From the NCBI RefSeq assembly GCF_039645585.1, contig NZ_CP147915.1:744001-808000 (forward strand): DNA of 64,000 bases, given 5' to 3'. The notes under the pieces were generated by a model, which searched no databases, had not been told where the DNA came from, and saw only the letters and a program-made list of their open reading frames with translations. Both the position numbers and the translations under genes were made by a program. This stretch comes from Sulfurimonas sp. HSL-1656 (GTDB lineage Bacteria; Campylobacterota; Campylobacteria; Campylobacterales; Sulfurimonadaceae). Below, one piece after another: positions 15,155 to 30,194 of the stretch. Position 1 is the first letter of the stretch. Each line of letters begins with the position of its first letter.

Positions 15155-15176
15155 GTAAAAACTATGTAAAAATCGC
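15155..15176 (-). promoter_or_regulatory. 11-bp direct repeat, candidate response-regulator site
   Basis: On the plus strand GTAAAAACTAT (15155-15165) is followed directly by GTAAAAATCGC (15166-15176). The site lies 38 bases before the DsrE-like start codon. The same layout occurs before soxX, the sensor operon and the 28413-29819 porin. Confidence 0.5.
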
Positions 15177-15184
15177 GATCTAGT

Positions 15185-15301
15185 GTCCGGTCCCCGTGGC
15201 TGCCTGCGGTTTGTGACGGAACGAACGTAGGAGTAGAAGAATGAATCAAACCAGTTCGGCAGGGAGGGGGCCGAGTATGCAGGCAGCCCCGGGGACCGGA
15301 C
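15185..15301. repeat. 117-bp element with 23-bp inverted ends
   Basis: The 23 bases at 15185-15207 and the reverse complement of 15279-15301 differ at one position. They flank a 71-base spacer with no gene. The right arm ends 7 bases past the stop of the DUF302 gene. It could be a miniature inverted-repeat element, or a very stable stem that separates the sox operon from the DsrE-like gene. No clear target-site duplication is seen. Confidence 0.6.
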
Positions 15302-15307
15302 GGAGGG

Positions 15308-16234
15308 TTACTCCGTCAGGTCGCTCAGGAGGGTTTCGAAATCGTCCTGGGCCTTCATGAGCTCGGCCGTGGCCGCAGCATCCTGGACGCGTGCGCTGCT
15401 CATCCAGTTATAGACGCCGGGGAAACCGATGACGATCTTGTCTTCGCCTTTTTTCTTGTACATCATCATCGTACAGGGCGCGAAGGCCGAAGCCTGCGGG
15501 CGCGTCTTGGCGACGTTGTAGATCACCTTCAGCTTACAGATGGAGTAGCTGTCATAAAAATCAAACGGGTTGTCGATGCTCTCATCCTCACCGACGACCA
15601 TCTCGAAATCGAGGGTGTTGGAGAGCACGAAGCCTTTGGGGCTGAGGCCGCCCTGGATTCCCATGGCGAGCTCCTCTTTTGCATCTTCGTACTCATCCTC
15701 TTCCACTTCGAGGCTGTAGGTTGAAACCAGGGGCCCCGTTGCCGGGAGCGGGTTCTCGTTCTCGATCGCGACGGTGGCTTTCGGCATCGCTTTTTCCAGA
15801 GCTTTCATCGCGGCCGTTTCGATACCTTTCACGATCGGGTCGACACTCTTAAGACCGATGATCTTTGCCATCGCTTCGGCGGTCAGCACGGAGACGTGCA
15901 GCTGCTTCTCGCCCTTGTGCTGGTAGATCCCGAAGCCCATCGGCACGAAGATACCCGCGTCGGGGTATTTTACGACGAGCTTACGGGAGAGGTCCGTATG
16001 GTACGCCGTCAGCAGGTAAAAGACCTCGAAGTCGCTCTGCTGGAACTGGATGTTGAACGGTTTGTTCATCTCCGTATTGGCGGCGATAGTGAAGCCGTTG
16101 GCTGCAAGTGAACGTTCGATCACCTGCGGCAGGTCGCTCTTGGGATCGTTGTCGACGCTGTAAATGCGCAGGTCACCCTGGGCATGCAGCGCGACAACGG
16201 CGGTTATCAGGAAAAAAAGCATCTTTTTCATCAT
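15308..16234 (-). CDS. Exported protein with two DUF302-like domains
   Basis: This 308-aa protein has a signal peptide (MLFFLITAVVALHAQG). Two DUF302-type halves follow. Half 1 (about 45-130) contains FEVFYLLTAYHTDLSRKLVV and VPMGFGIYQHKGEKQLHVSV. Half 2 (about 205-290) contains DSYSICKLKVIYNVA, FAPCTMMMYKKKGEDKIVIG and VYNWMSSARV. DUF302 proteins are common beside sox genes in this phylum, but their activity is unknown. Half 2 has two cysteines (SxC and PC) shared with the lipoprotein at 39660. It is the last gene of the sox run, 11 bases after the DsrE-like gene. Confidence 0.72.
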   Translation of the reverse strand: MMKKMLFFLITAVVALHAQGDLRIYSVDNDPKSDLPQVIERSLAANGFTIAANTEMNKPFNIQFQQSDFEVFYLLTAYHTDLSRKLVVKYPDAGIFVPMGFGIYQHKGEKQLHVSVLTAEAMAKIIGLKSVDPIVKGIETAAMKALEKAMPKATVAIENENPLPATGPLVSTYSLEVEEDEYEDAKEELAMGIQGGLSPKGFVLSNTLDFEMVVGEDESIDNPFDFYDSYSICKLKVIYNVAKTRPQASAFAPCTMMMYKKKGEDKIVIGFPGVYNWMSSARVQDAAATAELMKAQDDFETLLSDLTE

Positions 16235-16245
16235 GGTGTAATCCT

Positions 16246-16677
16246 TTAGGGTTTGATGTAGACCCAGCCCTCTTTGACCCGCTCGATCATCTCGACGATG
16301 CCGGCGGTGACGACTTCGACGTCGTCGATCAGCTGGTCTTCGGTAATGTTTTTGGTACGCATCGTATTGCCGCAGGCGACAAACGTGACGTCGTACAGCA
16401 TCAGCGTGCGTACCCGCTCCGCAATCTTGGGATTGTCCTTGAGCAGGGTACGGATCCCGCCGGAATAGGCGACGATCTCCATTTGGACCTTTTCCGGTCC
16501 GTAGAACTTCAGCACATTGTTGGCGGAGCTGAGCACATGGTTGATCGCCTCGTCACTCCCTTCGGTCACCGAGAAAACGACCTGGCGGGGGTTATCAAGG
16601 GCCGGTTTGGGGTCGGCGAACGCCGTATCGGCACTCAGCCAGGCGGCGAACGCCAGTAAAATGATCAGAAAACGCAT
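16246..16677 (-). CDS. Exported DsrE-family protein of the sox operon
   Basis: This 143-aa protein has the signal peptide MRFLIILLAFAAWLSA. The DsrE-type core includes VVFSVTEGSDEAINHVLSSA, MEIVAYSGGIRTLL and FVACGNTM (core Cys near residue 102), ending EGWVYIKP. It is close in sequence to the DsrE-like proteins at 14656 and 27898. Inferred role: periplasmic sulfur binding or transfer during thiosulfate or sulfide oxidation. It begins one base after the thioredoxin gene ends, so it is co-transcribed with the sox genes. Confidence 0.78.
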   Translation of the reverse strand: MRFLIILLAFAAWLSADTAFADPKPALDNPRQVVFSVTEGSDEAINHVLSSANNVLKFYGPEKVQMEIVAYSGGIRTLLKDNPKIAERVRTLMLYDVTFVACGNTMRTKNITEDQLIDDVEVVTAGIVEMIERVKEGWVYIKP

Positions 16678-16678
16678 G

Positions 16679-17056
16679 TTACTCCTTTGTGCACGCCGCT
16701 TCGGTCAGCGCGGTAAAATCTTCACGGTTCCATGACCCGGGCACCGTCTTGATGACGCGGCCCTCCGGGTTCAGGATGATGAAAGTCGGGCTCATTGGGA
16801 CCCTTGCCTCGAAGGGAACGTCCCGCTTCGAGAGGTTGATCTTGACCGGCACGAAACACCCCTCCACCCAGCGGCTCATCTCCGCGTCGTCGAAGACGGC
16901 ACGCTCCATGTCGTGGCAGTAGTGGCAGTCGTCGCGGACCAGGGCGGCGAGGATGTTCCTGCCGCGCTGCGCAGCTTCGGCCGTCCCCGCTGCCCAGCTG
17001 CGCCATTCGACGGCGTCGGCGAACAGCGGCAGCAGCAGCCACAGCAGCTTATTCAT
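16679..17056 (-). CDS. soxW: Periplasmic thioredoxin, SoxW-like
   Basis: This 125-aa protein has an N-terminal hydrophobic segment (LLWLLLPLFADAVEW) and a thioredoxin fold of the DUF255/thioredoxin-7 kind. The redox pair is Cys44-His-Tyr-Cys47 (DDCHYCHD), and the cis-Pro lies in VPMSPTF. In Sox systems such proteins keep the SoxY cysteine or its partners reduced. It starts 8 bases inside the end of the upstream hydrolase gene. The symbol is used for the role suggested by context; the match to SoxW proper was not tested. Confidence 0.7.
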   Translation of the reverse strand: MNKLLWLLLPLFADAVEWRSWAAGTAEAAQRGRNILAALVRDDCHYCHDMERAVFDDAEMSRWVEGCFVPVKINLSKRDVPFEARVPMSPTFIILNPEGRVIKTVPGSWNREDFTALTEAACTKE

Positions 17057-17957
17057 CGTCCCACTCCAGCATCCGGTAGGCCACTTCGACGTTTTGCGCA
17101 TGCATCGCGTCATAGAGCGCGACACTGCGGAAAGCGTCGAGGCGGATCGTTTTGGTGGCCTCGGCAATACCGATGCCGTCGTCGATGGCATCGCGGACAC
17201 GGTCGCGCAGCTGCGTCAGGTAAACATAGGTCATCTGCAGTGCGTCTTTGCCGGTGTTTTTGCCGTGGCCGCCGATGATGTGCTTCAGCGGCATCGCCTG
17301 CACCGTCTCCAGCGCGGCGATCCATCCGTGGAGGTCGCCGTCGCGCAGGGAGGGGATACGGTCGTTGAAGACGAGGTCGCCCGCAAAGAGCGTTTCACGT
17401 TTGGGCAGATAGACCATGAGGTCCTCTGCCGTGTGGGCCTTCCGGGTGAGCCGGATGATCCGCAGCGTTTCGCCGTCGACATCGAGCGTTTCATTGGCAT
17501 CGATACTGTGTGAGGGCAGCACGACTTGAGTCCCGGCATAGGCTTCGGGGCTGATGCGTTTCTGCATCCGCGTCGTCTCCTGCGGGTTGACCGCTTTTTG
17601 AAAGAGGCCCGGTCCGTAGACGGGAATTCCCGCTGCGGCGAAGTAGCCGTTGCCGAGCCAGTGGTCGTCATGCACGTGGGTGTCGATGACCAGGGCGGTC
17701 GGCTGTGCTTTGATTGCCTGCATCTTGGCCGCGGCCTCTTTGGCATAGGCATGGGTCGGGCCGCTGTCGATGACGAGCCAGCGGCGGCCGGTATCGACGT
17801 AGCAGCTGTTGACCATGTTGCCGTTGTTAACGGTGTTCATCGCCTCCGGCTTCCCGAAGAAACAGTAAATGCCCCGGTCGACGTTGACCGGTTCGAGGTG
17901 GTACTCGAACGCCAGCGCCGATGTGATACTAAGCCACACTGTCCAGAGCATTTTCAT
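17049..17957 (-). CDS. Exported metallo-beta-lactamase-fold hydrolase (SoxH-like)
   Basis: This 302-aa protein has a signal peptide (MKMLWTVWLSITSALA). The metal site is His94-Val-His96-Asp-Asp98-His99 (DTHVHDDHW), with later ligands in RKAHTAEDL, FAGDLVF and IIGGHG. The family includes SoxH and the hydrolases found with periplasmic quinoprotein and sulfur systems. The substrate is unknown; a thiol or persulfide hydrolase role is possible. It lies 13 bases after the porin gene and overlaps soxW by 8 bases. Confidence 0.78.
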   Translation of the reverse strand: MKMLWTVWLSITSALAFEYHLEPVNVDRGIYCFFGKPEAMNTVNNGNMVNSCYVDTGRRWLVIDSGPTHAYAKEAAAKMQAIKAQPTALVIDTHVHDDHWLGNGYFAAAGIPVYGPGLFQKAVNPQETTRMQKRISPEAYAGTQVVLPSHSIDANETLDVDGETLRIIRLTRKAHTAEDLMVYLPKRETLFAGDLVFNDRIPSLRDGDLHGWIAALETVQAMPLKHIIGGHGKNTGKDALQMTYVYLTQLRDRVRDAIDDGIGIAEATKTIRLDAFRSVALYDAMHAQNVEVAYRMLEWDDE

Positions 17958-17970
17958 CTGTCGATCCTTC

Positions 17971-19527
17971 TTAGAAGAGGTAGTTCAGCTCGAAGCGGTA
18001 CTCGTTGTAGGAGTCTTTGTCATACCCCGCTTCGCGATCTTTTGCATCGACCAGGCCGACGCGGACTTTGGCTTCCATACCCGGAATCGCCTTGATCTTT
18101 TCGATAAGGTCGATATGGAGGATGTTGCTGTCCGCCTGGACGCCTGCCGCCTGCTTTTCCTCGTCGAAGTCCTGCATCGCATAGCGGACCATCGCGCTCA
18201 GACCCGGCACCAGCCCGGCTTTGTCAAAGTTGTAGTTGACCTGTGCGGCAGTCGTCTTGGTATTGGCGTACCAGTTGTACTGCGCCATCGCACGGGTATA
18301 GCCGCCCGTCGGGAAACCGCGCCACGGCGCGACGATGTCCGCTTCGTCGGCGACGGCGGAGTAGGCGACCATCATTTTGAGCGGGCCGCTTTCGGCGACG
18401 AGGCGCGCCATCCAGAGGCTGGAGTCGAGGCTATCCGGCGTAGCGTAGCCTTTGGTGTCGTCAAAGACGGCCGTGCCGCCCGTCCAGTCGACAAGGGTGC
18501 CTTTGAGGGACGCACCACCGACTTTCCCGCCGCCGTCATCCATCTGCTGCATATAGCGTGCACCCGGTGTAACCGTCCAGCCGCCGACAGGGATGGCATA
18601 GTTGATCTCACCGGTCAGGGAGCTGACGACGCCCGGCACGCCGCCGTAGGTCAGGTCGAGCTGCAGGTTTTTGATCGACTTGTTCTGAATATCGGCGACG
18701 ATCAGCGAATGGGTGATGTCCTCTCCCGCCGCGCGGAAGTTGTTGACGCTCAGACCCTTGTGGACCGCGGAGTCGTCGTTGCCGTCCCAGTGCGTTTTGA
18801 CGCTGGTGTTGGAGTCGTCGTAGGTAAGGACGTCGTGGAAGGTCTCGTGGTCACGCAGCTTCTGCTGGTAGAACCAGGCACCGCGGATCCGTGTCTGCGG
18901 GAGCTCTTTGGTCGTGAAAGAGTACCCTTCGAAGGTGTTCGGGATCATCTTCGTGTCGTTGGACTTGGTCAGAAAGCTTTCGAAGATCTGACGGCCGGCG
19001 ACGAAGGAGGTCTTGGAGATGTCGTACTGGACATAGGCCTGTGCCAGTGTCGCGAAACCGTAGGTGCCGAGGCGGTTGACGTTGTAGCGGCTGGTCGTAT
19101 CCTTGCCCGCCTTCAGGTAGCCGATGTCCGCTTCGGACATGCGCTCGCCCGGGAACGGTTCGTCGGTATAGTACAGACCCGCGCCGACACTCAGGCCGTA
19201 GAGGGATGCGGTCTTGTAGATCAGGTTACCGCCGAGCCCCAGGGCACGGTTGTCTTTGTTCTTGGTCTGGGCCGTGTCGTCGTTCTTCCAGTCCCAGTTG
19301 AAGGAGTTGACGCGAAGGCGGCCGTAGACGATCCCTTTGGAGAACATCTCGGTAATGGTGTCCGCCGTGCCGGGAACAACATTGTAGACTTCCATCATAT
19401 TGCCTTTCAGGGAGCGTTTGACCTTGAATGCTTCACCGTCGTCCGCATACGCGTTGCTTGCCAATGTACAGGCCAGTGCTGCTGCCGCAGCTGCCGAAAT
19501 GAATTTGATTGATTGAATAGTAGCCAT
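17971..19527 (-). CDS. OprD-like outer membrane porin
   Basis: This 518-aa protein has a signal peptide (ISAAAAAALACTLASNAYA). Many short alternating beta-strands follow (GLGGNLIYKTASLYGLSVGAGLYY), with a C-terminal aromatic strand RFELNYLF typical of outer-membrane barrels. It resembles OprD-type porins found in Campylobacterota. Its place between soxB and the SoxH-like gene suggests uptake of a sulfur substrate into the periplasm, which is inference. The 149-base gap to soxB contains a hairpin, so its mRNA level may differ from that of soxXYZAB. Confidence 0.72.
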   Translation of the reverse strand: MATIQSIKFISAAAAAALACTLASNAYADDGEAFKVKRSLKGNMMEVYNVVPGTADTITEMFSKGIVYGRLRVNSFNWDWKNDDTAQTKNKDNRALGLGGNLIYKTASLYGLSVGAGLYYTDEPFPGERMSEADIGYLKAGKDTTSRYNVNRLGTYGFATLAQAYVQYDISKTSFVAGRQIFESFLTKSNDTKMIPNTFEGYSFTTKELPQTRIRGAWFYQQKLRDHETFHDVLTYDDSNTSVKTHWDGNDDSAVHKGLSVNNFRAAGEDITHSLIVADIQNKSIKNLQLDLTYGGVPGVVSSLTGEINYAIPVGGWTVTPGARYMQQMDDGGGKVGGASLKGTLVDWTGGTAVFDDTKGYATPDSLDSSLWMARLVAESGPLKMMVAYSAVADEADIVAPWRGFPTGGYTRAMAQYNWYANTKTTAAQVNYNFDKAGLVPGLSAMVRYAMQDFDEEKQAAGVQADSNILHIDLIEKIKAIPGMEAKVRVGLVDAKDREAGYDKDSYNEYRFELNYLF

Positions 19528-19676: not shown

Positions 19677-21446
19677 TTACGAACATCCCCCGCCTTTTGC
19701 AGGACAGCCGCAGTCGTAGTCGAGCAGTTTGACGTTGCCCGCATTGCTGACATCGACCGTTTTCTTGCGGCGGATGTAGTCGCGGACGACGTCGTAGACC
19801 GGGCGGGTCTTCCCTTTTTGGAGGTTGGAACCCGCATTCTGCAGGTTGCCGCCCCAGGAAGAGACCACGTAGGTCTTCTTCGGATCGAGCGGCTTGCCGC
19901 CGATACGCAGGTTGCTGATACGCTTGCCGCGCGGGTTGCCGACGGTGATCTCGTAGGTCACCCCGCCCAGGCGGCTCATGTCGCCGCCCTGCTGATAGAG
20001 CGGGTTGGCGTTGAAGACGTTGTCGGCGATATCCTCGAGCAGGGCGGCGATACGCTCGCCTCCCAGTTCGAAGGTATAGACGTTGGGATAGGTGATCCCG
20101 CACATCTCGTAGACGTTGTCCATCAAAATGTCGTCGCCCGGCAGGACCGTTGTCCCCCAGCGGTAGCCCGGCGTGAAGGAGATGTCACACTTCATCTCGT
20201 CCATGATCGCGTCGTTGATGAGCTGGTCGAAGGTCGAGAAGAAGGTGTCGCGCTTGTAGAGCAGCCCCTTCGTCTTCCCGAGTACTTCGTTCAACTCCTT
20301 GTCAAACGGCGCATAGAGCTCCGCGACGAGCTTTTCGCCCGCCGGGTCCGCCGGAATGATGTTCGACGCGACCGGGATAAGCTTGTACTCGTACCCCTTG
20401 ACCTTGTGGTCACGGATATCGATATCGAGGCGGCCGACATATTTGCCGTGGCTGCCCGCGATGACGATAACCGTACCGTCGATGACAATAGGTTTCGGCG
20501 AGGGGTCGTGCGTATGGCCGCTCAGAATGAAGTCGATGCCGTGGACCTTGCGGGCCACCTCCTGGTCGACGCTGAAACCGTCGTGCGACAGCACGACGAC
20601 ACAGTCGACCTTGTGCTCTTCGCGCAGCTCGTCGACATACTCCTGGAGGGTGTCAAGCCGCAGTCCGAAGCTCCACCCCTCGGTAAACTCTTTGGGGTTC
20701 GCCGTCGAGGTGAACGGGAAAGACTGGCCGATGATGCCGATCTTTGCGCCGCCGCGCTCTTCGATGGTGTACGGTTCGAAAATAAGCTCTTCGTACTCCT
20801 CGGCAAACGGATCATCCCCGATGATGTTCTGGGAGACGAACTTCGCGTCGAGCATCCCGATGAGCTCCTTGACACGCTCTTTGCCGTAGGTGAACTCCCA
20901 GTGGCCGACCATGACGTCGACACCGAGGTAGTTCTGCGCCTTGACGATCGCTTCGCCCTCTGTTTTCAGTGCGACGCCGGTACCCTGCCAGGTGTCGCCG
21001 GAGTCCAGCAGCAGGACTCTGTCCTTGCCGCGGCGCTTCTCGACCTCGTCGATCAGGGTCTTCATGTGGGCGATACCGCCCATCTTTCCGAATTTTTTCG
21101 CCAACGTTTCGAAATCCATGTGGGTATCGAAGTAGGCGTCAAGGGAGCTTGGCTCCAGCCCGTAGTGTTTGGCGAAGGATTCGCCGCACAGGAACCCGGG
21201 GGTTCCGACGAGGTTCGGCGCCGAGATCAGCGTCGAAGGCTCGCGCCAGTAGAGCGGCTTGATGTGCGCATGCAGGTCACAGATGTGCAGCAGGGTCACA
21301 TTGCCCGTCTCTTTGAAATCGTACAGATCGGCAAGCGTGATGTCCGCGGGGCTTTTGCCCCCGACGGTCGTCGCGTAGCTGTTGGAAACCGTCACCAGTC
21401 CCAGTGCCGCCGCGATCTGTAGAAAATCTCTTCTCGAAATATCCAT
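19677..21446 (-). CDS. soxB: Thiosulfohydrolase SoxB
   Basis: This 589-aa protein hydrolyses the terminal sulfone from SoxY-bound S-sulfonate in the periplasm, releasing sulfate. A twin-arginine signal (SRRDFLQIAAALGL) starts the protein. The calcineurin-like dimetal site is seen in HICDLHAHI (Asp57, His59), LDSGDTW, VGHWEFTYG, LSHDGF and SGHTHD. A 5'-nucleotidase-like C-terminal domain follows. The C-terminus is cysteine-bearing (DYDCGCPAKGGGCS). It comes 12 bases after soxA. Confidence 0.95.
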   Translation of the reverse strand: MDISRRDFLQIAAALGLVTVSNSYATTVGGKSPADITLADLYDFKETGNVTLLHICDLHAHIKPLYWREPSTLISAPNLVGTPGFLCGESFAKHYGLEPSSLDAYFDTHMDFETLAKKFGKMGGIAHMKTLIDEVEKRRGKDRVLLLDSGDTWQGTGVALKTEGEAIVKAQNYLGVDVMVGHWEFTYGKERVKELIGMLDAKFVSQNIIGDDPFAEEYEELIFEPYTIEERGGAKIGIIGQSFPFTSTANPKEFTEGWSFGLRLDTLQEYVDELREEHKVDCVVVLSHDGFSVDQEVARKVHGIDFILSGHTHDPSPKPIVIDGTVIVIAGSHGKYVGRLDIDIRDHKVKGYEYKLIPVASNIIPADPAGEKLVAELYAPFDKELNEVLGKTKGLLYKRDTFFSTFDQLINDAIMDEMKCDISFTPGYRWGTTVLPGDDILMDNVYEMCGITYPNVYTFELGGERIAALLEDIADNVFNANPLYQQGGDMSRLGGVTYEITVGNPRGKRISNLRIGGKPLDPKKTYVVSSWGGNLQNAGSNLQKGKTRPVYDVVRDYIRRKKTVDVSNAGNVKLLDYDCGCPAKGGGCS

Positions 21447-21458
21447 AACTGCTGTCCT

Positions 21459-22229
21459 TTAGCGTTTCAGACCGGGGATGGCGATCGTTTTGTTTTTCGC
21501 CTTGGCCAGGTTGGTCACGTAGACCTCCAGCCCCACCATCTCGTCCGAACCGATCGGCAGCACCGCCAGCAGGGCGTTTTGCATACAGCCCTGGAAACGG
21601 CGCTGAAGCGTGCGCAGGGAGGACTTCGTCATCCGGTAGGCCGGCCAGGTCGCGCCGGCGGCGTTCTCACCGAGATCCGGCAGCGGCTGCGTGCGCAGGA
21701 CCGAGCCGATGATGTCGGCCGAGTGGCAGCTGTTGCACGAAAGCCCGCGCCCGCCGCGTGCGGTCATGAAGACCTCTTCGCCGAGTTTGTACGCCGCCTG
21801 CATCTGCGGGTTGGCGTTGACGTCGACGCGGACCGGCTCTTCGTTCGCCAGTGACTTGGCGTAGGCCAGCATCGCGAACATCTCTTTGCTGCCGAGCTTG
21901 AACGGTTTGTGGCCGTTCTTGGCCATCAGCGCCTGCATCACCTGGTCGACGCCGAGGACGGCGTCGAACTGCTTGATGTAGCGCGGGAATCCCGAGATGT
22001 ATTCGGGGAGTTTCGCCTCGGAGACGCCCATGAACTTCGCCAGGCCGGCGTCGCCGCCGCAGTTCTCCTCGACGAGTTCGCCGCCCCATTCGACGTCCAT
22101 CTCCGCGGGGTTGTTCTCCAGCAGTTCGGCATAGAGCGCACGGTCGGCGTCGCTCATGGCGAACTGCTCACCGCCGAATGCCAGCGTGCCCAGAAGCAGG
22201 GTGGCTGCAATGATTGATGTAGCTTTCAT
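21459..22229 (-). CDS. soxA: Sulfur-oxidation cytochrome c subunit SoxA
   Basis: This 256-aa protein is the catalytic half of SoxXA, which joins thiosulfate to the SoxY cysteine. It has a signal peptide (MKATSIIAATLLLGTLAFGG). One haem c site is seen, Cys165-Asn-Ser-Cys168-His169, so it is of the single-haem kind. The conserved distal Cys215 (RRFQGCMQNA) supplies the modified cysteine ligand. It starts 3 bases after soxZ. Confidence 0.93.
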   Translation of the reverse strand: MKATSIIAATLLLGTLAFGGEQFAMSDADRALYAELLENNPAEMDVEWGGELVEENCGGDAGLAKFMGVSEAKLPEYISGFPRYIKQFDAVLGVDQVMQALMAKNGHKPFKLGSKEMFAMLAYAKSLANEEPVRVDVNANPQMQAAYKLGEEVFMTARGGRGLSCNSCHSADIIGSVLRTQPLPDLGENAAGATWPAYRMTKSSLRTLQRRFQGCMQNALLAVLPIGSDEMVGLEVYVTNLAKAKNKTIAIPGLKR

Positions 22230-22232
22230 GGC

Positions 22233-22568
22233 TCAGCCTTTCGGTTTGAGTTTTTTCGACTGCTCTTGGACTTCGCCGGTGTTGGTCTTGTAGACGACTT
22301 TCAGTGTCCCTGCGGCGGGTACTTTGAAGTTGATCGTGAAGACCGGGTTCGTCGAGACGGATTCCCAGACCTGCATCGTCGTGAACGGGGTGTCGTTGTA
22401 GAAGAACTTCACCTCCGTGATGTAATCGGCGGGAACGATCTTGCCGCTCTTCTTGTCTTTGCGCATCCCGGTTTCCATCGGGTGCATGACCATGAAGTTG
22501 ACCTTGACGACGTCGCCGCTCTTAAACTTTTTCGGTTTGATCTTGATCAGTGATTTTCTTTCTGCCAT
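22233..22568 (-). CDS. soxZ: Sulfur carrier partner SoxZ
   Basis: This 111-aa protein has no signal peptide, as usual; it is exported with SoxY. It has the beta-sandwich pattern of SoxZ: GDVVKVNFMVMHPMETGMRK, YITEVKFFYNDTPF and TLKVVYKTNTGEVQE. It forms the SoxYZ carrier on which all sulfur intermediates are held. It is separated from soxY by 41 bases. Confidence 0.93.
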   Translation of the reverse strand: MAERKSLIKIKPKKFKSGDVVKVNFMVMHPMETGMRKDKKSGKIVPADYITEVKFFYNDTPFTTMQVWESVSTNPVFTINFKVPAAGTLKVVYKTNTGEVQEQSKKLKPKG

Positions 22569-22609
22569 TGTCTATCCTTTAATGTTGTTGCTCGGGTATT
22601 GCGCGGCGA

Positions 22610-23086
22610 TCAGCCGCATCCGCCGATCGTGACTTTGACGCTCTGCTTTGCGCTGAGAAACTCGCCGGTGCTGGTTTCGGCGACAACAAGGACGTCCTGG
22701 GAGCTGCCGAGTTTGATACGTGTCGCGAACATCGCCGCGCCGTTGGCCGGTGTCAGCATGATGTCGGCACAGCGTACGTTGCTGTTTTTCGTCGCGAAGA
22801 CGTGGATCGCTTTGACATAGTCGTCGTTGGTCATCGGGGAATCAACCTCGATGGTGACGGGTACCACGGCGCCGTTTTCCGCGATTTCAGGGGCTTTGAG
22901 GTGCACTTTCTTCGAAGGTGTCACGGCCTTGCCGCCGGTGATGGCCTTGAGGGCCGTATCGATATCCATCGTGTTGGGCCCTTTGGGCGCTTCCGCTGCG
23001 AGCAGGCTCTGCGGGGTGAGGGTTGCTGTTGCTGCCGTGGCCGCTGCGGCCAGTCCGATACGTTGTAAGAAGCTTCTTCTTTGCAT
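22610..23086 (-). CDS. soxY: Sulfur carrier SoxY
   Basis: This 158-aa protein has a twin-arginine signal (MQRRSFLQRIGLAAAA) that also carries SoxZ across the membrane. The C-terminal swinging arm ends VTIGGCG, with Cys157 as the covalent sulfur attachment point. The textbook arm is GGCGG; here the protein stops one glycine earlier. It is the second gene of the operon, 11 bases after soxX. Confidence 0.92.
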   Translation of the reverse strand: MQRRSFLQRIGLAAAATAATATLTPQSLLAAEAPKGPNTMDIDTALKAITGGKAVTPSKKVHLKAPEIAENGAVVPVTIEVDSPMTNDDYVKAIHVFATKNSNVRCADIMLTPANGAAMFATRIKLGSSQDVLVVAETSTGEFLSAKQSVKVTIGGCG

Positions 23087-23097
23087 AGGGTTCTCCT

Positions 23098-23628
23098 TTA
23101 GTGTTTGATGGAAACGATATACGAGGTGATATCGCAGATTTCACGTTCGGTAAAGAGGCCGGTCGTGAGGTTGATCGTCATATGGGTGTTCGGATTGTCG
23201 ACGCGTGCATCGGCGATCTTCTGGTAGACGAACTGGTTGTCGCGGGTACCCGTTTCAATGAAAAACGCGTGATAGTTTGTCAGGTCCGGCCCGATATTCC
23301 CGGCGCCTTTGGCCCCTTCGATATTGTGGCAGGCGACACAGTTGCCGTACTGCTTCGGCGAGCCGTCAGCATTCTTTTTCGTCAGACCCGCGGGCAGCTT
23401 GCCTTTGGCTTTTTCTCCATTGAGATTATGGAAAATATAGGCGCCCCGTGCGATCGCGTCCTTGTCGTCCGTGATACACCCTGCAGGCATCGTGTAGGCC
23501 TTGGCCGGCCCGAACAGATCCTTTTGGATGATCGACGCCGCTTCGGGGCGTTCGATGGCATCGGACAGGTTGGACGCGAACGCCACACCCAGACCGATGG
23601 TTGTACTGAGTAGCAGCCATCTCTTCAT
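23098..23628 (-). CDS. soxX: Sulfur-oxidation cytochrome c subunit SoxX
   Basis: This 176-aa protein is the electron-accepting haem subunit of SoxXA. The signal peptide is MKRWLLLSTTIGLGVAFA. The haem c site is Cys97-Val-Ala-Cys100-His101 in QYGNCVACH, with a later Met in NTHMTI as likely axial ligand. The start at 23628 follows AAGGAGAAACACG and gives the signal; the longer reading to 23718 would pass through the promoter. It is the first gene of the sox operon, with the candidate operator 44 bases upstream. Confidence 0.92.
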   Translation of the reverse strand: MKRWLLLSTTIGLGVAFASNLSDAIERPEAASIIQKDLFGPAKAYTMPAGCITDDKDAIARGAYIFHNLNGEKAKGKLPAGLTKKNADGSPKQYGNCVACHNIEGAKGAGNIGPDLTNYHAFFIETGTRDNQFVYQKIADARVDNPNTHMTINLTTGLFTEREICDITSYIVSIKH

Positions 23629-23671
23629 CGTGTTTCTCCTTGCTTGGTTTCGAAAATTGTAACGGTGGAAT

Positions 23672-23693
23672 GTAAAAACAATGTAAAAAAATA
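23672..23693 (-). promoter_or_regulatory. 11-bp direct repeat before soxX
   Basis: On the plus strand GTAAAAACAAT (23672-23682) is followed by GTAAAAAAATA (23683-23693), and a partial third unit ATAAAGATTT begins at 23693. It lies 44 bases before the soxX start codon and is the clearest example of the repeat shared by four promoters in this region. Confidence 0.55.
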
Positions 23694-23735: not shown

Positions 23736-24911
23736 TTAAATAGCGGGTTTTTGGCAGAGTTCCGGCGGGAATACGTAGGTGAATGTGCTTCCCTGTTGCG
23801 GCGCGGAGGTGACCTCGAGACCGATGCCGGCCTCCTCCATGATCGCCTTGACGATGTTGAGCCCGATGCCGAAACCGCCCTTGCCGGTCTCTTCGCGGTA
23901 GTAGCGCTCAAAGATCTTTTCGGTGTTCTCGATCCCCAGGCCGTAATCCTTGAAGGTGAGTTCGCAGCGGTGGTCGTACTGTTTCAGGGCCACCTCGACG
24001 ATGCTGTTCTCGTGGGAGTACTTGATGGCGTTGGAGATGTTGTTGTCGATGATGCGCTGCAGCTGGGTCTGGTTGAAGTGCAGGACCACCCCGGGGTCGA
24101 TTTCGGAGGCGATGGTGATCCCTTTCATGGCGGCGACCTCGTTGAAGTAGAGGATGCGCTCGCGTACGAAGGCGCTGACGTCGATGTCGTCGTACTCGAA
24201 AACGATCTGGCGGTTCTTGATGAGGTACTCCATATCGTTGTAGATGTTCGAGAGGGTCTTGGACGCCGCCTTGATGCGTTGCAGATATTTGCTTTGCGGG
24301 TGTTTCCGGTTGTAGAGATCGATGTTGATGTTGATGATCGAGAGCGGGGTGTTGATCTCGTGGACGGTATCTTTGATGAAGTTGTCCAGCTTCTGGTTGA
24401 CGCGTTTGAACGGCAGGGCGAAACGCTGCAGGAAGAGCAGCGAAAGGAAAAAGACGAGGACGACGATGGCGATCAGAATTGCGGCGACCCGTTCGTAGAC
24501 GGGTGCGTAATTGAGGTGGTTGGCGACGATGAGGTACTCCGCGCCGAAATAGCGCTCCCGGGGGAGGGGAATGATGAGGTAGGCACTATGGCTTTCGTCG
24601 ATATGGTAGCCGGCGGCGAAGTGCTCCATCGGGAAATCGATCAGGGTGAAGACCGGTTTGAAGTGCAGGTCGTAAAGCCCCGAGACGATCCGCTTGAAAC
24701 GGGGGTACTCGAAGTAGTTGTCACGGTTTTCGTCATACTCCTCCATGGCGCTGATGATGCGCGAGGCGTGCTGTTTGAGCATCAGTTCGTTCTGGATCCC
24801 GTGGATCTGCTTCATGTAGACGGTATAGACGTAGAGCGGGGCGAGCAGGATCACCGTGATCAGTCCCGTGTAAAGCGCGGCGTTCTTGAGGGCGTACTGG
24901 CTATCTTTCAA
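23736..24911 (-). CDS. Sensor histidine kinase
   Basis: This 391-aa membrane kinase has two transmembrane segments (about 11-32 and 143-162). Between them is a ~110-residue periplasmic sensor part. Then come the HisKA helix with His184 in DTVHEINTPL and an HATPase domain with NNISNAIKYS, KDYGLGIE and GGFGIGLNIVKAI. The start is TTG 24911, 11 bases inside the regulator gene, so the two are coupled. It should phosphorylate the OmpR-type regulator next to it. The signal is unknown. Confidence 0.88.
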   Translation of the reverse strand: MKDSQYALKNAALYTGLITVILLAPLYVYTVYMKQIHGIQNELMLKQHASRIISAMEEYDENRDNYFEYPRFKRIVSGLYDLHFKPVFTLIDFPMEHFAAGYHIDESHSAYLIIPLPRERYFGAEYLIVANHLNYAPVYERVAAILIAIVVLVFFLSLLFLQRFALPFKRVNQKLDNFIKDTVHEINTPLSIININIDLYNRKHPQSKYLQRIKAASKTLSNIYNDMEYLIKNRQIVFEYDDIDVSAFVRERILYFNEVAAMKGITIASEIDPGVVLHFNQTQLQRIIDNNISNAIKYSHENSIVEVALKQYDHRCELTFKDYGLGIENTEKIFERYYREETGKGGFGIGLNIVKAIMEEAGIGLEVTSAPQQGSTFTYVFPPELCQKPAI

Positions 24912-25554
24912 TGATGTATCCTACGCCGCGGCGGTTCTTGATGATGTCGGCGGGCAGTTTCTTGCGCAGGTTGTTGATCTGGACGCGGATATTGGCCGGG
25001 TCGACGTATTCGCCCCACACCTCGTCCTGGAACATTGCCATGGAGACGGCCTGGTTCGTGTGGCGCAGCAGGACCTCCAGGATGTCATTCTCCGTCTTGC
25101 TCAGCGTGATGGGCTCTTCCCTGTAGCTGAGCTGCATCCGTTTCGTGTCATAGAGCAGGTCCGGGGCGAGCTCGATCGCTTCGCTGTGCTTGTAGTAGTA
25201 GCTGCGCAGTGCATGTTCGATGCGCAGCTGCAGCTCGGTGAGGTCGAAGGGTTTGCGGATGTAGTCGCAGCAGCCGCGCTTGTACCCCTCTTCGAGGTCC
25301 TTGGTCTGGGTGCGGGCGGTGATGAAGATGGCCGGGGTCTCGTTGCCTTCGGCACGCAGGGTTTTGAGCAGTTCGAAGCCGCTGAGGCCGGGGACGTTGA
25401 CATCAAAGAGGAAGAGGTCGAAGTGGGCCGCGCAGGCGGCGTCAAAAGCGTCGTCGCCGTTGGCGTAGGTCTCGACGGTGAAATCAAGGTCTTCGAGAAA
25501 CTCCTCGATGCTGACGCGCAGGGCGTATTCGTCTTCCAAGAGCAGGATTTTCAT
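24901..25554 (-). CDS. OmpR/PhoB-family response regulator
   Basis: This 217-aa protein has a receiver domain (acidic Glu7-Asp8, phospho-acceptor Asp51 in FLFDVNVP, Lys in IRKPF) and a C-terminal winged helix (EPITLSKTENDILEVLLR, then VQINNLRKKLPADIIKNRRGVGYIIER). OmpR-family regulators bind head-to-tail repeats about 10-11 bp apart. Four promoters in this window carry 11-bp direct repeats, including the one before this operon. It is coupled by ATGA to the upstream cache-domain gene. Confidence 0.9.
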   Translation of the reverse strand: MKILLLEDEYALRVSIEEFLEDLDFTVETYANGDDAFDAACAAHFDLFLFDVNVPGLSGFELLKTLRAEGNETPAIFITARTQTKDLEEGYKRGCCDYIRKPFDLTELQLRIEHALRSYYYKHSEAIELAPDLLYDTKRMQLSYREEPITLSKTENDILEVLLRHTNQAVSMAMFQDEVWGEYVDPANIRVQINNLRKKLPADIIKNRRGVGYIIER

Positions 25555-26684
25555 CGTATCTCTCCTTCGATCTTTCGGGCGAGTTTGTAGTGGAGCATCA
25601 GCGCGATCAGCTCCTCCTTGGTGTAGGTGGAGAGCACGTCGCGCGCCTCCTCCATGAAGAGCTCCCGGTCCTCTTCGGGCACGGTGTCTTTGAGCGAGAG
25701 CAGGGCCTTGTCGTAACCGCTGTGGTAGACCTTGTTGTCGTACTGCTCTTTTTTGACGATGTCGTAGAGGTTGTTGCGTGAAAAGGCGAGCAGGAAGGAG
25801 AGGTTCTCCCCGCTGCGGGCGAAATGTTCGATGCTCTGTTTCGGCATGACGAAGACGAAGGCGCCGATGGTCTCGCCGTCGCCGTTGTGCATCGGCTCGA
25901 AGAAGATGTATTTGTTTTCCCGGAGCATGACACGCTCTTTACGCAGCTGTTTCATATCCAGGCGCTGCAGGACCTTGAGGTTGACGTTGTTGTAGCGGCG
26001 GTTTCCGACAAGGTACCAGGCGACGGAGGGGTTGTTCTGCATCAGCACGGCGGTATTGTAGTAGCTGTCGTCGAGCAGCGCGTAGAGGTCGATGCCGAAC
26101 TTGTGGAAGAAGTCGGTACTGGCGTCGAAGAACTTTAGCACTTCGACGAAGCCGATGAGCTCCCCCTCTTCGTACATGGGGACCGTCGCTTTGATCCCCA
26201 GCCGCCGTCCGACTTCGATGGAAGCGCGCGGTTTTTTATGGAGGATGATCTCTTCGAGATCGCGGCGGTAGGTGTCGAGCGGCATGCCCGAAAAGAGGTT
26301 GTCCGCATCCCAGCTGCGGGCGAAGAGCGTTGAATCCGCCGTGATAACCTGGGCGCGTACAAGCTCGGAAGTGTTCTGCTGGACGCTCTGGATCATCCGT
26401 TTGAGCAGGGCGAAACCGGCCTCGTCGTCATCCTCTTTGAGGGCGTTGCGCAGGGTGTCGTTCTCGGAGAGGATCAGCGCGAAGCGCAGGGCGTCCTCCC
26501 TCTCGTTGCGCAGCTCGGTGCGGAGCGAAAGGCTGAGCTGGTCGCTGACCTCGTCGACGACCTGCCAGGAGACCTCTTTGTTCAGGGAGTAGACGGTCCA
26601 CGAGAGCAGGGCGAGCATGGCTGCAAAGGGGAAAATGAACCAGAACCGCTTCGGTGTGATGATCGTCAACTTCTTCTCCGTCAT
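25551..26684 (-). CDS. Membrane-anchored cache-domain sensor without output domain
   Basis: This 377-aa protein has one N-terminal transmembrane segment (FWFIFPFAAMLALLSWTVY). A large periplasmic part follows, with the double-cache features VRAQVITADSTLFARSWD, KPRASIEVGRRLGIKATVPM and GELIGFVEVLKFFD. After that comes a region ending KEELIALMLHYKLARKIEG. No kinase, HAMP, GGDEF or methyl-accepting domain is present. As first gene of an operon with a response regulator and a kinase, it is probably an accessory ligand-binding sensor acting through the kinase. That role is inference. Confidence 0.7.
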   Translation of the reverse strand: MTEKKLTIITPKRFWFIFPFAAMLALLSWTVYSLNKEVSWQVVDEVSDQLSLSLRTELRNEREDALRFALILSENDTLRNALKEDDDEAGFALLKRMIQSVQQNTSELVRAQVITADSTLFARSWDADNLFSGMPLDTYRRDLEEIILHKKPRASIEVGRRLGIKATVPMYEEGELIGFVEVLKFFDASTDFFHKFGIDLYALLDDSYYNTAVLMQNNPSVAWYLVGNRRYNNVNLKVLQRLDMKQLRKERVMLRENKYIFFEPMHNGDGETIGAFVFVMPKQSIEHFARSGENLSFLLAFSRNNLYDIVKKEQYDNKVYHSGYDKALLSLKDTVPEEDRELFMEEARDVLSTYTKEELIALMLHYKLARKIEGEIR

Positions 26685-26709
26685 AAGGGAGTGATGATAG
26701 CCGGATAAT

Positions 26710-26731
26710 ATAAATATTGTATAAAGATTTC
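26710..26731 (-). promoter_or_regulatory. 11-bp direct repeat before the sensor operon
   Basis: On the plus strand ATAAATATTGT (26710-26720) is followed by ATAAAGATTTC (26721-26731), 26 bases before the first gene. It is a more degenerate form of the sox-region repeat and suggests autoregulation. Confidence 0.4.
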
Positions 26732-26863: not shown

Positions 26864-26916
26864 GGCCGCTACGGTTTCGGGCATATACCAAAAATGACGA
26901 GACAAAGGATGGCGGG

Positions 26917-27756
26917 ATGTTCAGAACGATTTTGGTAACGGTGGTGTTGCTCTCGGGACTGCTGGCGCAGGCGGCACCGAGCGTGACGTTGAAGGTGAAA
27001 CAGCAGGAGCAGCACCTCTACAAGACGGTGTCGAAGACGGTGACGGTCAACGTGTTCGACATCAAGGGGTCGAAGGAGACGATGGACCAGATCGCGGCGG
27101 CGGGGGTAAAACTGCCGATGGAAGTCAACCAGACGCAGGCCATGACGAAGATCCTGAAAACGGGCCGCACGGCGAAAGGCGGAAAACTCCCTTTCTCCGG
27201 AAGCCTGGAAACGGCGGCCAAGGCCAGCAGCAGCCGCGGTGCCCAGGACTCGCACAAAAAGTTTGAGGTGACCGGTACGCTGGAAGGTACCAGGCCCACC
27301 ATCGAAACCGTCAAGGGGGAGGGGATCACCGCGGAGCTTGAAGGGCGGGTGAAACAGGCCCTTGCAAATGCCATGGCCACGCCCGTCTACCCGGAAAAAC
27401 CGCTCAAGGTCGGTGAGCATTTTACGCAGCAGGTGCCGGTCACGCTGCCGATGCAGGGGGCGGCGCCGATCCAGATCGTGCTGACGACCGAATATACCCT
27501 GACAAAGATCAACGGTTCCAAAGCCTACTTTGATATCGTGCAGCAGTACGCCCCCGCCCCGAGTACGGACGGTAAGGCGGTCAGACTCAGCGGAGCAGGG
27601 AAAGGGAAGATGACCTATGACAGCAAGCTGCTGCAGGTCCTCACACTGAAGACGGATTCTGTGATGGATATGAGCGTCAAAAGCGGCGACAAAGTCTCCA
27701 TGATCAAAACGAAAACGTCCAGCGATATCACGACGACCGTCACCCCGGTCAAATAG
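26917..27756 (+). CDS. Exported protein of unknown function
   Basis: This 279-aa protein has a signal peptide (MFRTILVTVVLLSGLLAQAAP). The mature part is rich in Thr, Lys and beta-strand patterns (VSKTVTVNVFDIKGS, TTEYTLTKINGSKAYFDIVQ, GKMTYDSKLLQVLTLKTDS, TSSDITTTVTPVK) and has no cysteine. The arrangement resembles periplasmic proteins of the DUF6263 kind, but I cannot confirm the family. It is the only plus-strand gene in the sulfur region and stands alone, between the sensor operon and the porin/DsrE-like pair. Confidence 0.6.
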   Translation: MFRTILVTVVLLSGLLAQAAPSVTLKVKQQEQHLYKTVSKTVTVNVFDIKGSKETMDQIAAAGVKLPMEVNQTQAMTKILKTGRTAKGGKLPFSGSLETAAKASSSRGAQDSHKKFEVTGTLEGTRPTIETVKGEGITAELEGRVKQALANAMATPVYPEKPLKVGEHFTQQVPVTLPMQGAAPIQIVLTTEYTLTKINGSKAYFDIVQQYAPAPSTDGKAVRLSGAGKGKMTYDSKLLQVLTLKTDSVMDMSVKSGDKVSMIKTKTSSDITTTVTPVK

Positions 27757-27769
27757 CTTCTCTCTTTTA

Positions 27770-27786
27770 GCGGCCCGTTGGGCTGC
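27770..27786 (+). terminator. Hairpin after the gene ending at 27756
   Basis: GCGGCCC (27770-27776) pairs with GGGCTGC (27780-27786), with one G-T pair and a 3-base loop. The tail CCTTATGC has no T run, so it is a weak terminator candidate. Confidence 0.35.
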
Positions 27787-27897
27787 CCTTATGCTGTCTT
27801 ATCCCTCGTCCCCTTGTTCGTTTGAAGAGCCGGAAGGCCCTTCGATAACGTACCGGTCAGAAATACTATAGCGGTGCAGTAGTACCGAACGCTGCCG

Positions 27898-28401
27898 TTA
27901 CTGGATTTTAATATAGGCGAACCCGTCGCGCTGATCGTCAATGACCTTGATGATGCCGCCGGGGGTGATCTCCACGTTGTCGGCGATCTGTGCCGCTTTG
28001 ACGTTCTTTTTATCCATGGTGTTCTGACAGGCGAAGAAGGTAATGTTGTCGCCGCCGAGCAGTTTGAGGCCGTTAAAGCGTTTGCGCGTCCCTTCGCCCG
28101 TCGGCCCTCCTTTCTCCAGGTAGGGTTTGGCCTCGAAGCCGGTCCCTTTGAAGTCCTTCATGAAGTATTGCAGGCAGGGCCCCAGTGCGACGACGTCGAT
28201 CTGGTACTGGATCAGGTTTTTCTCGTAATATGTCACGGCGTTGTTCAGCGTGTTCAGCATGAGGTGGACCCTCTGGACGTCGGGGAAGTCGCACTGATAG
28301 ACGATCTTGACGACGTCATCATCGTCATCGGCCCAGACCGTCGGTATGAAAAAGGTGAGTGCCAGTGCCATCACCATCCGTGTCATCGATACTTTTTTCA
28401 T
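27898..28401 (-). CDS. Exported DsrE-family protein paired with a porin
   Basis: This 167-aa protein has a signal peptide (MTRMVMALALTFFIPTVWA). The DsrE-like core reads VKIVYQCDFPDVQRVHLMLN, YQIDVVALGPCLQYF and ITFFACQNTM, ending GFAYIKIQ. Three cysteines are seen; the one in ACQNTM matches the core Cys of the sox-operon paralogue. The start 28401 has a signal peptide and follows AAAGGAGAAAAC; the longer reading to 28557 would sit in the porin gene. It is 11 bases after the porin and in one operon with it. Confidence 0.75.
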   Translation of the reverse strand: MKKVSMTRMVMALALTFFIPTVWADDDDDVVKIVYQCDFPDVQRVHLMLNTLNNAVTYYEKNLIQYQIDVVALGPCLQYFMKDFKGTGFEAKPYLEKGGPTGEGTRKRFNGLKLLGGDNITFFACQNTMDKKNVKAAQIADNVEITPGGIIKVIDDQRDGFAYIKIQ

Positions 28402-28412
28402 GTTTTCTCCTT

Positions 28413-29819
28413 TTAAAATGCCGCGGTGACCTGGATCGCGAGCCGATCGCCCATGTTGTCCAGAACGTCCTGCGCTGCAGCGTTGCCCGGTGCTTTCGCA
28501 TCGCGGATCATATAGTTGAAATCGATCCGCGTCGGTCCGCGGAAACGATAAGAACATCCCAGGGTGAAGGTCTGGAAATCGCGTTCGCCCTTGGTGTCGT
28601 TGGTCAGTCGGTTCATAAAGTCATAGCGGCCGAAGACCTCGAACTGCTTGGGGAGGAGTTCATATTGCAGGTTGAGGTAGCCGCCCGCTGCCTTGTTCTC
28701 GGTGCCGACGGCGAACTGCAGTTGCCAATCTTCCTGATAGGGGTCCGGGTCTTTGTCCTTGGCGCCCGTGTAGATCATCCCTTCAGCCCACATGTATTCC
28801 GCTTCCGCCCGCAGGCCATTTTGATAGTAGGAAAGGCCGATGCCGTAGCGTTTGCGGTCGTGTTTGACGGGCGTGGTCGTGCCGTTGACGTCGGTAGAGT
28901 AGAGCAGCCGCTTACCGGTCTGGCCCCAGACAAAAAACTTAAGGGCTTCGGTATAAAAGCCTCTGCCGGCGCCGAAGTTGTCTTCGAGGGCCAGATAGCC
29001 GTAATGGGTTGCCTGGTGGTCTGAAGCAATGTGGGAAATCCCGCTACCGTTACCGTACATATAGGCGTAACTGAGCGTCCACCCCTGGCCGAGTGCAAAG
29101 GTGTCAAAAAGCTCGAGTCCCATGTCCCGGAATGCGGCGATCGGGCGTGTAACATCGGTGCTGGTATAGTGCACCGTCGAAGCGCCGCCGGCTGCTTTGC
29201 CGGTCTCTGCCGTGCCGACCTTTGACACCTGGCGCTCGAGCAGCTGCTGGTTCGTCATTGTGGTGAATTCGATGTAGGGGGAGACGAAGACGGCCCGAAG
29301 TCCTTCTTCGCTGCCCGGGGTTTTAAACATACCGATGCGTGCATTAAGTCCCGGGATGTGGCGGAGGGTCACCGACGCGTCGGTGAAGTAAGTGGCGGTA
29401 TCATGTCCGGCAAGATTATTGACGGCGTTATTGCCGAATTCCGTCATGAAAAAATAGTTGACTTTATTGTCATTGTCGGCCATACCGCGTGCGGCGAGTC
29501 TGGCACGAAACAGGCTGAACCCCTCCTGGTCGGTCAGGTTGGGGTTCAATAAAGAGAACGGTGTCTTGTTCACACCGTTGGGATCGATGAAGACATCGCC
29601 GTAATCTTGTTTGTAGTTGGCCTGGATGAAGCCCCAGACGACAGGCATCTTGTTGCGATAGGGCCCGACAACCCCTTTGGGTGCGACGTTGTCGGGCTGT
29701 GTACCCTGCAGCATCAGCCAGTTGGCCGCCTCCAGTGACATGGCGCTAAAAAGCATGACTATTATTCCTGCAACTCCCCTGAAAAAGAGGCGCATTAAAC
29801 CGTTTCCTTGCGTGGGCAT
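28413..29819 (-). CDS. Outer membrane porin
   Basis: This protein of about 468 aa has a signal sequence (LFFRGVAGIIVMLFSAMSLEAA). Barrel strands follow, such as GWTLSYAYMYGNGSG and YGIGLSYYQNGLRAEAEYMW, with a terminal DRLAIQVTAAF ending in Phe. It looks like a phosphate-selective (OprO/P-like) or related anion porin. Two starts are possible: ATG 29819 after AAGGATGGGAA, or ATG 29795 after AAGGAAACGG, the latter giving a more typical signal length. Its promoter carries the sox-type repeat and a DsrE-like gene follows, so it may admit a sulfur anion. The substrate is inference. Confidence 0.72.
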   Translation of the reverse strand: MPTQGNGLMRLFFRGVAGIIVMLFSAMSLEAANWLMLQGTQPDNVAPKGVVGPYRNKMPVVWGFIQANYKQDYGDVFIDPNGVNKTPFSLLNPNLTDQEGFSLFRARLAARGMADNDNKVNYFFMTEFGNNAVNNLAGHDTATYFTDASVTLRHIPGLNARIGMFKTPGSEEGLRAVFVSPYIEFTTMTNQQLLERQVSKVGTAETGKAAGGASTVHYTSTDVTRPIAAFRDMGLELFDTFALGQGWTLSYAYMYGNGSGISHIASDHQATHYGYLALEDNFGAGRGFYTEALKFFVWGQTGKRLLYSTDVNGTTTPVKHDRKRYGIGLSYYQNGLRAEAEYMWAEGMIYTGAKDKDPDPYQEDWQLQFAVGTENKAAGGYLNLQYELLPKQFEVFGRYDFMNRLTNDTKGERDFQTFTLGCSYRFRGPTRIDFNYMIRDAKAPGNAAAQDVLDNMGDRLAIQVTAAF

Positions 29820-30194
29820 TTCCCATCCTTTTGATTTGAATGGCGATGATCATAGACACGGAGTGTAAAATTAATATAAAAATTTCGAATATTTTTGATA
29901 TTTTTGTGATTAGATTTTATTATGCAGTATGGCCGAAGGCAGGGCGGGTCCTATTTGCAGATAAGAATTGCAGTACAGCATTGTTCGGGCAAGAGTGACG
30001 CTCGGTTTTCCCTGCTTTTGTAACGGTTGACTATTGATTTGAGGCCTTCGGCAGTGCTACGCACATCGCCTTCGGTTTGTCCTAGCTGCGCTCCGGAATT
30101 CCGCTACGCTGCATCGCTCGCCGAAACGCCAAAACAAGGGTACCACTCGCCTAGCGATGTTTCCTTGAGCAATGGGCGTTTCTTTATGGCGAGC
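29820..30194. other. 375-bp intergenic region with inverted repeats
   Basis: It holds the porin promoter and operator (29865-29886), an AT-rich tract to about 29925, then G+C-rich sequence with no open gene. GCCGAAGGC near 29933 and GCCTTCGGC near 30043 are inverted copies. CTCGCCGAAACGCC (30117-30130) can pair with GGCGTTTC (30175-30182) and GGCGAG (30188-30193), ending just past the radA stop. It may be a decayed repeat or gene remnant, with the last stem acting as radA terminator. Confidence 0.5.
29865..29886 (-). promoter_or_regulatory. 11-bp direct repeat before the porin gene
   Basis: On the plus strand GTAAAATTAAT (29865-29875) is followed by ATAAAAATTTC (29876-29886), 46 bases before ATG 29819. 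It has the same spacing and orientation as the site before soxX. Confidence 0.45.

Follow-up and report, generated by a model that had tools for sequence, protein, structure and literature searches.

Four minus-strand transcripts in the sulfur-oxidation region of Sulfurimonas sp. HSL-1656 are preceded by the same promoter element, two TTTACA-type half-sites set head to tail with an 11-bp step (TTTACA-N5-TTTACA, or 7 bp plus 4 bp). The region lies in a 64,000-nucleotide stretch of the genome (the window), whose numbering gives the coordinates below, and the element is read on the transcribed (minus) strand. The transcripts start with dsrE1, which encodes a DsrE-like protein, with soxX, with the gene for a dCache_3 membrane sensor (the cache gene) and with a porin-like gene followed by dsrE3. 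The cache gene opens a three-gene cassette that continues with an OmpR/PhoB-family response regulator (RR) and a histidine kinase (HK). The repeat before these four transcripts is a real promoter element that is conserved across the order, and we propose, at a probability of about 0.86, that it is a pho-box-like operator to which the sox-linked RR would bind as a tandem dimer, activating sulfur-oxidation promoters.

The original prediction described a shared 11-bp direct repeat 26-48 bp before the start codons. All eight 11-mers are found at the positions it gave, each once on the plus strand (15155/15166, 23672/23683, 26710/26721 and 29865/29876), and the four start codons agree as well; the measured distance to them is 26-46 bp, so the lower bound stands and the upper one is slightly too high. 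The repeat and its 11-bp step are borne out, but the 11-mers themselves are poorly conserved, the conserved unit being TTTACA (7 bp as tTTTACA) followed by an A/T-rich spacer of 4-5 bp. A feature beyond that observation is a -10 hexamer exactly 9 bp downstream of the second half-site, present at 4 of the 4 sites in the window (Table 1).

To place the sites against their genomic background we used whole-genome searches and 18 sampled 20-kb stretches, and scanned 424 kb with a weight matrix trained on soxX sites from which this genome and its near relatives were excluded. The four sites took ranks 1-4, in the order porin, soxX, dsrE1 and cache (36.3 to 21.5 bits), and the fifth match reached 11.7 bits. 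A differently built profile run over the whole genome placed soxX (28.0 bits), porin (21.1) and dsrE1 (15.9) ahead of the next match at 11.0 bits, and in the window the same profile returned the four sites on top with the cache site lowest. Because the sites head both the matrix scan and the profile search with a gap below them, the repeat does not appear to be a general promoter feature here, and the finding that only these four exceed 12 bits in 424 kb speaks against the repeat being just as common in any other AT-rich promoter. The 2.556-Mb genome has 11 occurrences of TTTACAN5TTTACA with at most one mismatch, a number that does not exceed that of a reversed control, so that a genome-wide excess is not usable as an argument, and the case rests instead on location, on perfect matches and on the trained matrix. 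Three of the 11 occurrences, including the only perfect one, fall inside the 14.7-kb interval of the four sites (expected 0.06, Poisson P about 4e-5). When the 150-bp upstream regions were shuffled with their dinucleotides preserved, the observed score was reached 0, 0, 1 and 0 times per 2000, the single case belonging to the cache site.

The genome also holds an unlinked set of sox genes about 1.7 Mb away, which includes soxC (G000:C1:2481670-2482920; L314). The best match before soxC, at 15.4 bits, was rejected as an element, its second half-site not lying 9 bp from the -10 hexamer, and since soxC has no well-spaced element this second set is probably under other control.

Across the Campylobacterales the element travels with the cassette. 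About 40 loci (Sulfuricurvum, Sulfurimonas and metagenome-assembled genomes of Helicobacteraceae) have cache-RR-HK immediately ahead of soxXYZAB, as do the majority of soxX loci in the order; the recurrent arrangement is cache-RR-HK-soxXYZAB-(oprD)-MBL-thioredoxin-like-dsrE2-DUF302, often with dsrE1 (MBL, metallo-beta-lactamase). A scan of 85 distinct soxX upstream regions for TTTACAN5TTTACA found 67 perfect matches, 12 with one mismatch, two with two and four that were worse; these regions thus carry the direct half-sites with an 11-bp step (7 + 4 bp) expected of an OmpR/PhoB-type operator. The gap to the -10 hexamer is 9 bp in 72 of 79 soxX promoters, a fixed position in place of the -35 box, and over the same 79 promoters the TTTACA positions are 97-100% conserved (89% for the last A of the first half-site) while the flanks diverge. 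The same element stands before dsrE1 in congeners and before unlinked dsrE1 orthologues of other genera, and the porin-dsrE3 site is kept in G001, G006 and Sulfurimonas MAG313 (L052), whose porin and dsrE3 genes immediately follow the cassette, soxX and MBL within a single locus.

Before soxX the element is found in 82 of 84 distinct upstream regions. One apparent exception ends at a contig edge (L191), and in another (L083, from G006) an insertion splits an intact element of 30.3 bits from soxX. This insertion (L268, about 750-1020) has terminal inverted repeats of about 25 bp (GGGCACCTCTAAAAACCCTGCATGG) and looks like a miniature mobile element. The two regions that do lack the element, L176 (G295) and L196 (G014), come from the only sampled soxX genomes without a cassette orthologue: neither has a cache match or a cassette beside sox, and the best RR there reaches 39-40% identity. 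If loss of element and cassette were independent, the chance of both element-free genomes being both cassette-free genomes would be 1 in 3486. Where the cassette is present but not adjacent, for example on another contig in G028, the element is kept.

The half-site and the recognition helix of the RR also vary jointly. Among orthologous RRs the helix D-P-A-N-I-R-V-Q/H-I-N-x-L-R-K-K is nearly constant and the half-site stays TTTACA, and in L073, where the central V of the helix is replaced by A, both half-sites read TTTCACA. A paralogous cache-RR-HK cassette in G003 (L261 7261-13430, on G003:C25) has the helix TEADIRMCIKGIRDKT and a CTTACA-type element, CTTACATAAAACTTACA-N9-TACCAT, before the genes for a porin and a dihaem cytochrome of TsdA type; in this copy the module would be directed at a different thiosulfate enzyme. 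The RR of the congener G004, with the helix DPANVRVQINNLRKKL, is nearly identical to the sox-linked RR in this segment, and its genome carries the perfect TTTACAN5TTTACA before two multihaem cytochrome genes (L204 around 8412-8446 and 9419-9453; L262 5607-8534), with no sox match seen near the cassette or the elements. The two independent deviations of helix and half-site are few, yet both go in the expected direction.

That the element recurs before sulfur genes unlinked to sox speaks most strongly for a regulon operator over a mere local repeat. Profile searches of 41 family genomes and 41 Sulfuricurvum genomes, run under stricter filters and with at most 150 candidates scored per genome, give lists that are lower bounds. 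The element was found before at least 14 dsrE1 orthologue loci (L299-L302, L305 and nine more), mostly unlinked to sox, before a DUF302 gene (L308), and before at least three YeeE/YedE sulfur transporters (L307, L372 and L382; L307 matches Pfam Sulf_transp with E 7e-52). Further sites precede a porin (L361), PAS-GGDEF proteins, a gene judged rhodanese-like on visual inspection (L369) and, in several genomes, at least six dCache chemoreceptors (L304, L309, L366, L370, L373 and L379), which suggests that sulfur chemotaxis is co-regulated with sox. YeeE-like SoxT proteins take part in sulfur import and sox signalling in a proteobacterium (PMC11582611), and in Sulfurovum indicum a dsrE, soxW and soxH1 beside soxABXYZ increase with thiosulfate (PMC10045233). 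Matches concentrate before sox, dsrE-like and porin genes both here and in other genera. The candidate operator function that the original prediction assigned to these repeats, control of the sox, DsrE-like and porin transcripts by the RR at 24901-25554, is thus strongly supported at the level of sequence, through site concentration, co-occurrence with the cassette, covariation of helix and half-site, and the unlinked dsrE-like and YeeE sites.

The RR has the domains of the OmpR/PhoB family (PF00072, E 7e-25; PF00486, E 2.4e-15), and its domain scan showed only receiver and Trans_reg_C, with no AAA+ sigma-54 interaction domain. It is not a PhoB orthologue, scoring 114.6 bits against the NCBIfam PhoB equivalog TIGR02154, whose cut-off is 296.2. 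The cache protein matches dCache_3 (PF14827, E 6.5e-16), and its structural model, with a predicted local distance difference test score of 81, shows a tandem Cache domain after one N-terminal transmembrane helix. The best PDB match to the model is the sensor of Vibrio cholerae DctB (Z 14.9, 212 residues, 3.9 Å); a PDB sequence search with the protein found no relative. The modelled fold gives no pointer to the ligand. We propose a separate dCache sensor feeding the kinase because the HK has two transmembrane segments and no annotated sensor domain. The periplasmic part of the cache protein would sense a sulfur-related signal and pass it to the HK, which would phosphorylate the RR. Two RR molecules would then bind head to tail to tTTTACA-N4-tTTTACA on one helix face, upstream of the -10 hexamer where the -35 box would sit, and the dimer would recruit sigma-70 RNA polymerase in a PhoB-like manner, replacing the -35 contact. 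On direct repeats, OmpR/PhoB regulators bind as tandem dimers (PMC4832192). Activation would extend to soxXYZAB and the genes downstream of it, to dsrE1 and porin-dsrE3, and perhaps to the cassette. The case that the sox-linked RR binds the element is strong, and that for activation, which we infer from the position of the element, is moderate. The nature of the targets points, weakly to moderately, to thiosulfate or another reduced or sulfane-sulfur species as the signal.

Several points weigh against this reading. The argument for activation comes from position, and a repressor could occupy the same place; related genomes are non-independent observations, and the soxX genomes without a cassette number only two; and the cache site has the lowest score of the four, is shared with G007 only and is absent in the congeners G001 and G006. 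The linked RR might bind and repress, the cassette shutting sox off when reduced sulfur is missing, since the element overlaps the -35 region where polymerase could be blocked. This seems unlikely to us, as exact 11-bp repeats placed immediately before the -10 hexamer match the geometry with which PhoB activates, and G295, which has lost both element and cassette, carries TATAAT and not TACAAT, as if compensating for a lost activator.

It is far less probable that the repeat is an ordinary sigma-70 signal of Campylobacterota, in which a periodic A/T pattern with an 11-bp step replaces the -35 box. A periodic A/T-rich pattern is indeed present in about 89% of Campylobacter jejuni promoters (PMC3656092) and our sites are correctly placed relative to the -10 box, but they stand alone in 424 kb of their own genome, disappear together with the cassette in G295 and G014, and have the fixed hexamer and diverging flanks described above; TTTACA is sequence-specific, unlike a general A/T-rich periodicity. 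The cache promoter of the congeners, moreover, has TGATATAAT without the repeat. Marginally less probable still is binding by another OmpR-family regulator such as HP1043/HsrA, whose site TTTAAG-N5-TTTAAG has the same 11-bp spacing and a similar hexamer (PMC5253667). HP1043 requires the A and G of TTTAAG (PMC5253667), and over the 79 soxX promoters these positions are C in 99% and A in 89-97%; the element also tracks the sox-linked cassette and changes with the recognition helix of its RR. Both observations fit the proposed tandem binding of the sox-linked RR.

Self-control of the regulator, also part of the original prediction, is the weak part of the proposal. The cache site ranks fourth in 424 kb, well above the fifth match, has the same 9-bp gap to the -10 hexamer and is kept in G007. 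On the other hand it has the poorest score, is the only site exceeded by a shuffle (one in 2000), overlaps conventional promoter-like matches and is missing in G001 and G006. That it is a chance A/T-rich promoter, leaving only the soxX, dsrE1 and porin sites as operators, must be taken seriously, even if we lean somewhat against it. Autoregulation is possible in this genome; as the site is weak and not conserved in G001 and G006, it is doubtful. In these two congeners a plain TGATATAAT promoter stands before the cassette, which follows dsrE3 of the porin operon at a distance of about 130 bp; as that operon has a good element, its promoter may supply the regulator there.

Systems of this kind are already known, whereas the regulator and its regulon appear undescribed. 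The pho box of Escherichia coli PhoB likewise consists of two head-to-tail 11-nt direct-repeat units (7 conserved plus 4 less conserved) bound by an RR of the same family; it overlaps the -35 region, where PhoB contacts sigma-70 (PMC4415409, PMC3348028). Here the half-site is TTTTACA and differs from the pho-box sequence, the regulon is one of sulfur oxidation and the dCache sensor is a separate protein. Of the full-length relatives of the present RR with a solved structure, one of the closest is PhoP of Mycobacterium tuberculosis. Its tandem dimer binds direct repeats of 7 bp strictly spaced by 4 bp (PMC4832192); the motif is TCACAGC, and the regulon is unrelated. HP1043/HsrA of Helicobacter pylori, from the same phylum and distinct from CemR (HP1021), uses hexamer direct repeats with a 5-bp spacer and an 11-bp step (PMC5253667); compared by its published site, it differs in reading TTTAAG and not TTTACA, and it is an orphan RR with other targets, untied to a sox-linked cassette. 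In Acidithiobacillus caldus the two-component systems TspS-TspR and RsrS-RsrR also lie beside sulfur-oxidation clusters (PMC5093147); TspR is sigma-54 dependent, unlike the present RR with its Trans_reg_C domain, and RsrR binds a 19-bp inverted repeat. The ArsR-type SoxR of Proteobacteria controls sox in response to sulfane sulfur, but it is a cytoplasmic one-component repressor, and the regulator of the present locus is of OmpR/PhoB and not of ArsR type. SoxR is stated to occur strictly within Proteobacteria, even though Sox is carried by 30.7% of the species of Campylobacterota (PMC10451225), and sox receives a single mention, without its control, in a review of how Campylobacterota regulate respiration (PMC6682613). 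In the open-licence literature searched, no sox regulator of Campylobacterota is described.

Vents, sediments and groundwater are habitats in which Campylobacterota count among the major sulfur oxidizers, and the RR is the first concrete, testable candidate for a sox regulator in this phylum. A candidate regulator with an exact operator and conserved targets makes the sensing of usable sulfur directly testable, and gives a shared functional context to uncharacterised secreted DsrE-like and DUF302 proteins, the porin, the YeeE transporter and the chemoreceptors. Tentatively, and at close to even odds, the stand-alone periplasmic dCache_3 sensor, the kinase without a large sensor of its own and the PhoB-like RR may form a dedicated thiosulfate or sulfane-sulfur sensor of Campylobacterales. 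Its core regulon would comprise sox, secreted DsrE-like proteins, porin, YeeE transporter and dCache chemoreceptors, with paralogues re-aimed at TsdA-like or multihaem cytochromes, and in Sulfuricurvum it would drive a small RNA with the invariant segment UUCGAUUCUCCUUCG, complementary to the Shine-Dalgarno sequence.

This last target is the commonest second one in Sulfuricurvum and has no clear gene. At 15 distinct sites, L298 and L354 being near variants, the element and a -10 hexamer are followed by the invariant TTCGATTCTCCTTCG and a variable hairpin, with two-sided changes in 5 of 8 predicted pairs. The sites are intergenic, near the gene of a 145-aa membrane protein or tRNA-Ser, and among 61 genomes of the family they were seen in Sulfuricurvum only; no Rfam family matched the transcript. 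The invariant segment carries CUCCUU, complementary to a Shine-Dalgarno sequence. The natural reading is a predicted small RNA driven by the regulator, outside the window.

The remaining features are listed in Table 1. The porin-like gene and dsrE3 lie furthest upstream, followed by the cassette and then soxXYZAB; the porin identity of 28413..29819 is assigned from sequence character and co-occurrence. A plus-strand gene with a weak DUF6263 match (26917-27756) sits between the cassette and porin-dsrE3 here (compare L081). The near relative G007 is without porin-dsrE3, and G001 and G006 are without the inserted gene.

Table 1. Candidate operators and genes of the sox region (window coordinates; scores are matrix/profile bits), with the small-RNA-like sites of Sulfuricurvum.
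Feature	Position	Strand	Remarks
Candidate operator before dsrE1	15154..15170	-	TTTACATAGTTTTTACT-N9-TATGAT; -10 at 15139-15144; 22.5/15.9
Candidate operator before soxX	23671..23687	-	TTTACATTGTTTTTACA-N9-TACAAT; -10 at 23656-23661; 34.7/28.3
Weak candidate operator before cache-RR-HK	26709..26725	-	TTTATACAATATTTATA-N9-TATCAT; -10 at 26694-26699; 21.5/8.7
Candidate operator before porin-dsrE3	29864..29880	-	TTTATATTAATTTTACA-N9-TATGAT; -10 at 29849-29854; 36.3/21.1
OmpR/PhoB-family RR, proposed binder	24901..25554	-	receiver and Trans_reg_C; recognition helix DPANIRVQINNLRKKL
HK	23736..24911	-	HisKA and HATPase_c; two transmembrane segments; no large sensor domain annotated
Stand-alone dCache_3 membrane sensor	25551..26684	-	overlaps RR start codon; tandem-Cache fold by model
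soxX, first gene of soxXYZAB	23098..23628	-	NCBIfam equivalog
soxY, soxZ, soxA, soxB	19677..23086	-	NCBIfam equivalogs
OprD-like porin, MBL (SoxH-like), thioredoxin-like, DsrE-like 2, DUF302	15308..19527	-	conserved genes downstream in sox locus
dsrE1 (DsrE-like gene 1)	14656..15117	-	signal-peptide-like N-terminus; own promoter
Porin-like outer-membrane protein, first gene of porin-dsrE3	28413..29819	-	no Pfam match
dsrE3 (DsrE-like gene 3), behind porin	27898..28401	-	no Pfam match; BLAST similarity to dsrE1/dsrE2
Small-RNA-like sites	L346, L347, L349, L351, L353-L358, L360, L362, L376, L298, L312		Sulfuricurvum

An Rfam scan of positions 13000-32000 of the window found no match, and this includes a GC-rich block before the dsrE1 operator (about 15175-15255, ATTCTTCTACTCCTACGTTCGTTCCGTCA...CAGGCAGCCACGGGGACCGG). 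The block resembles one upstream of the paralogous cache gene of G003 (L009).

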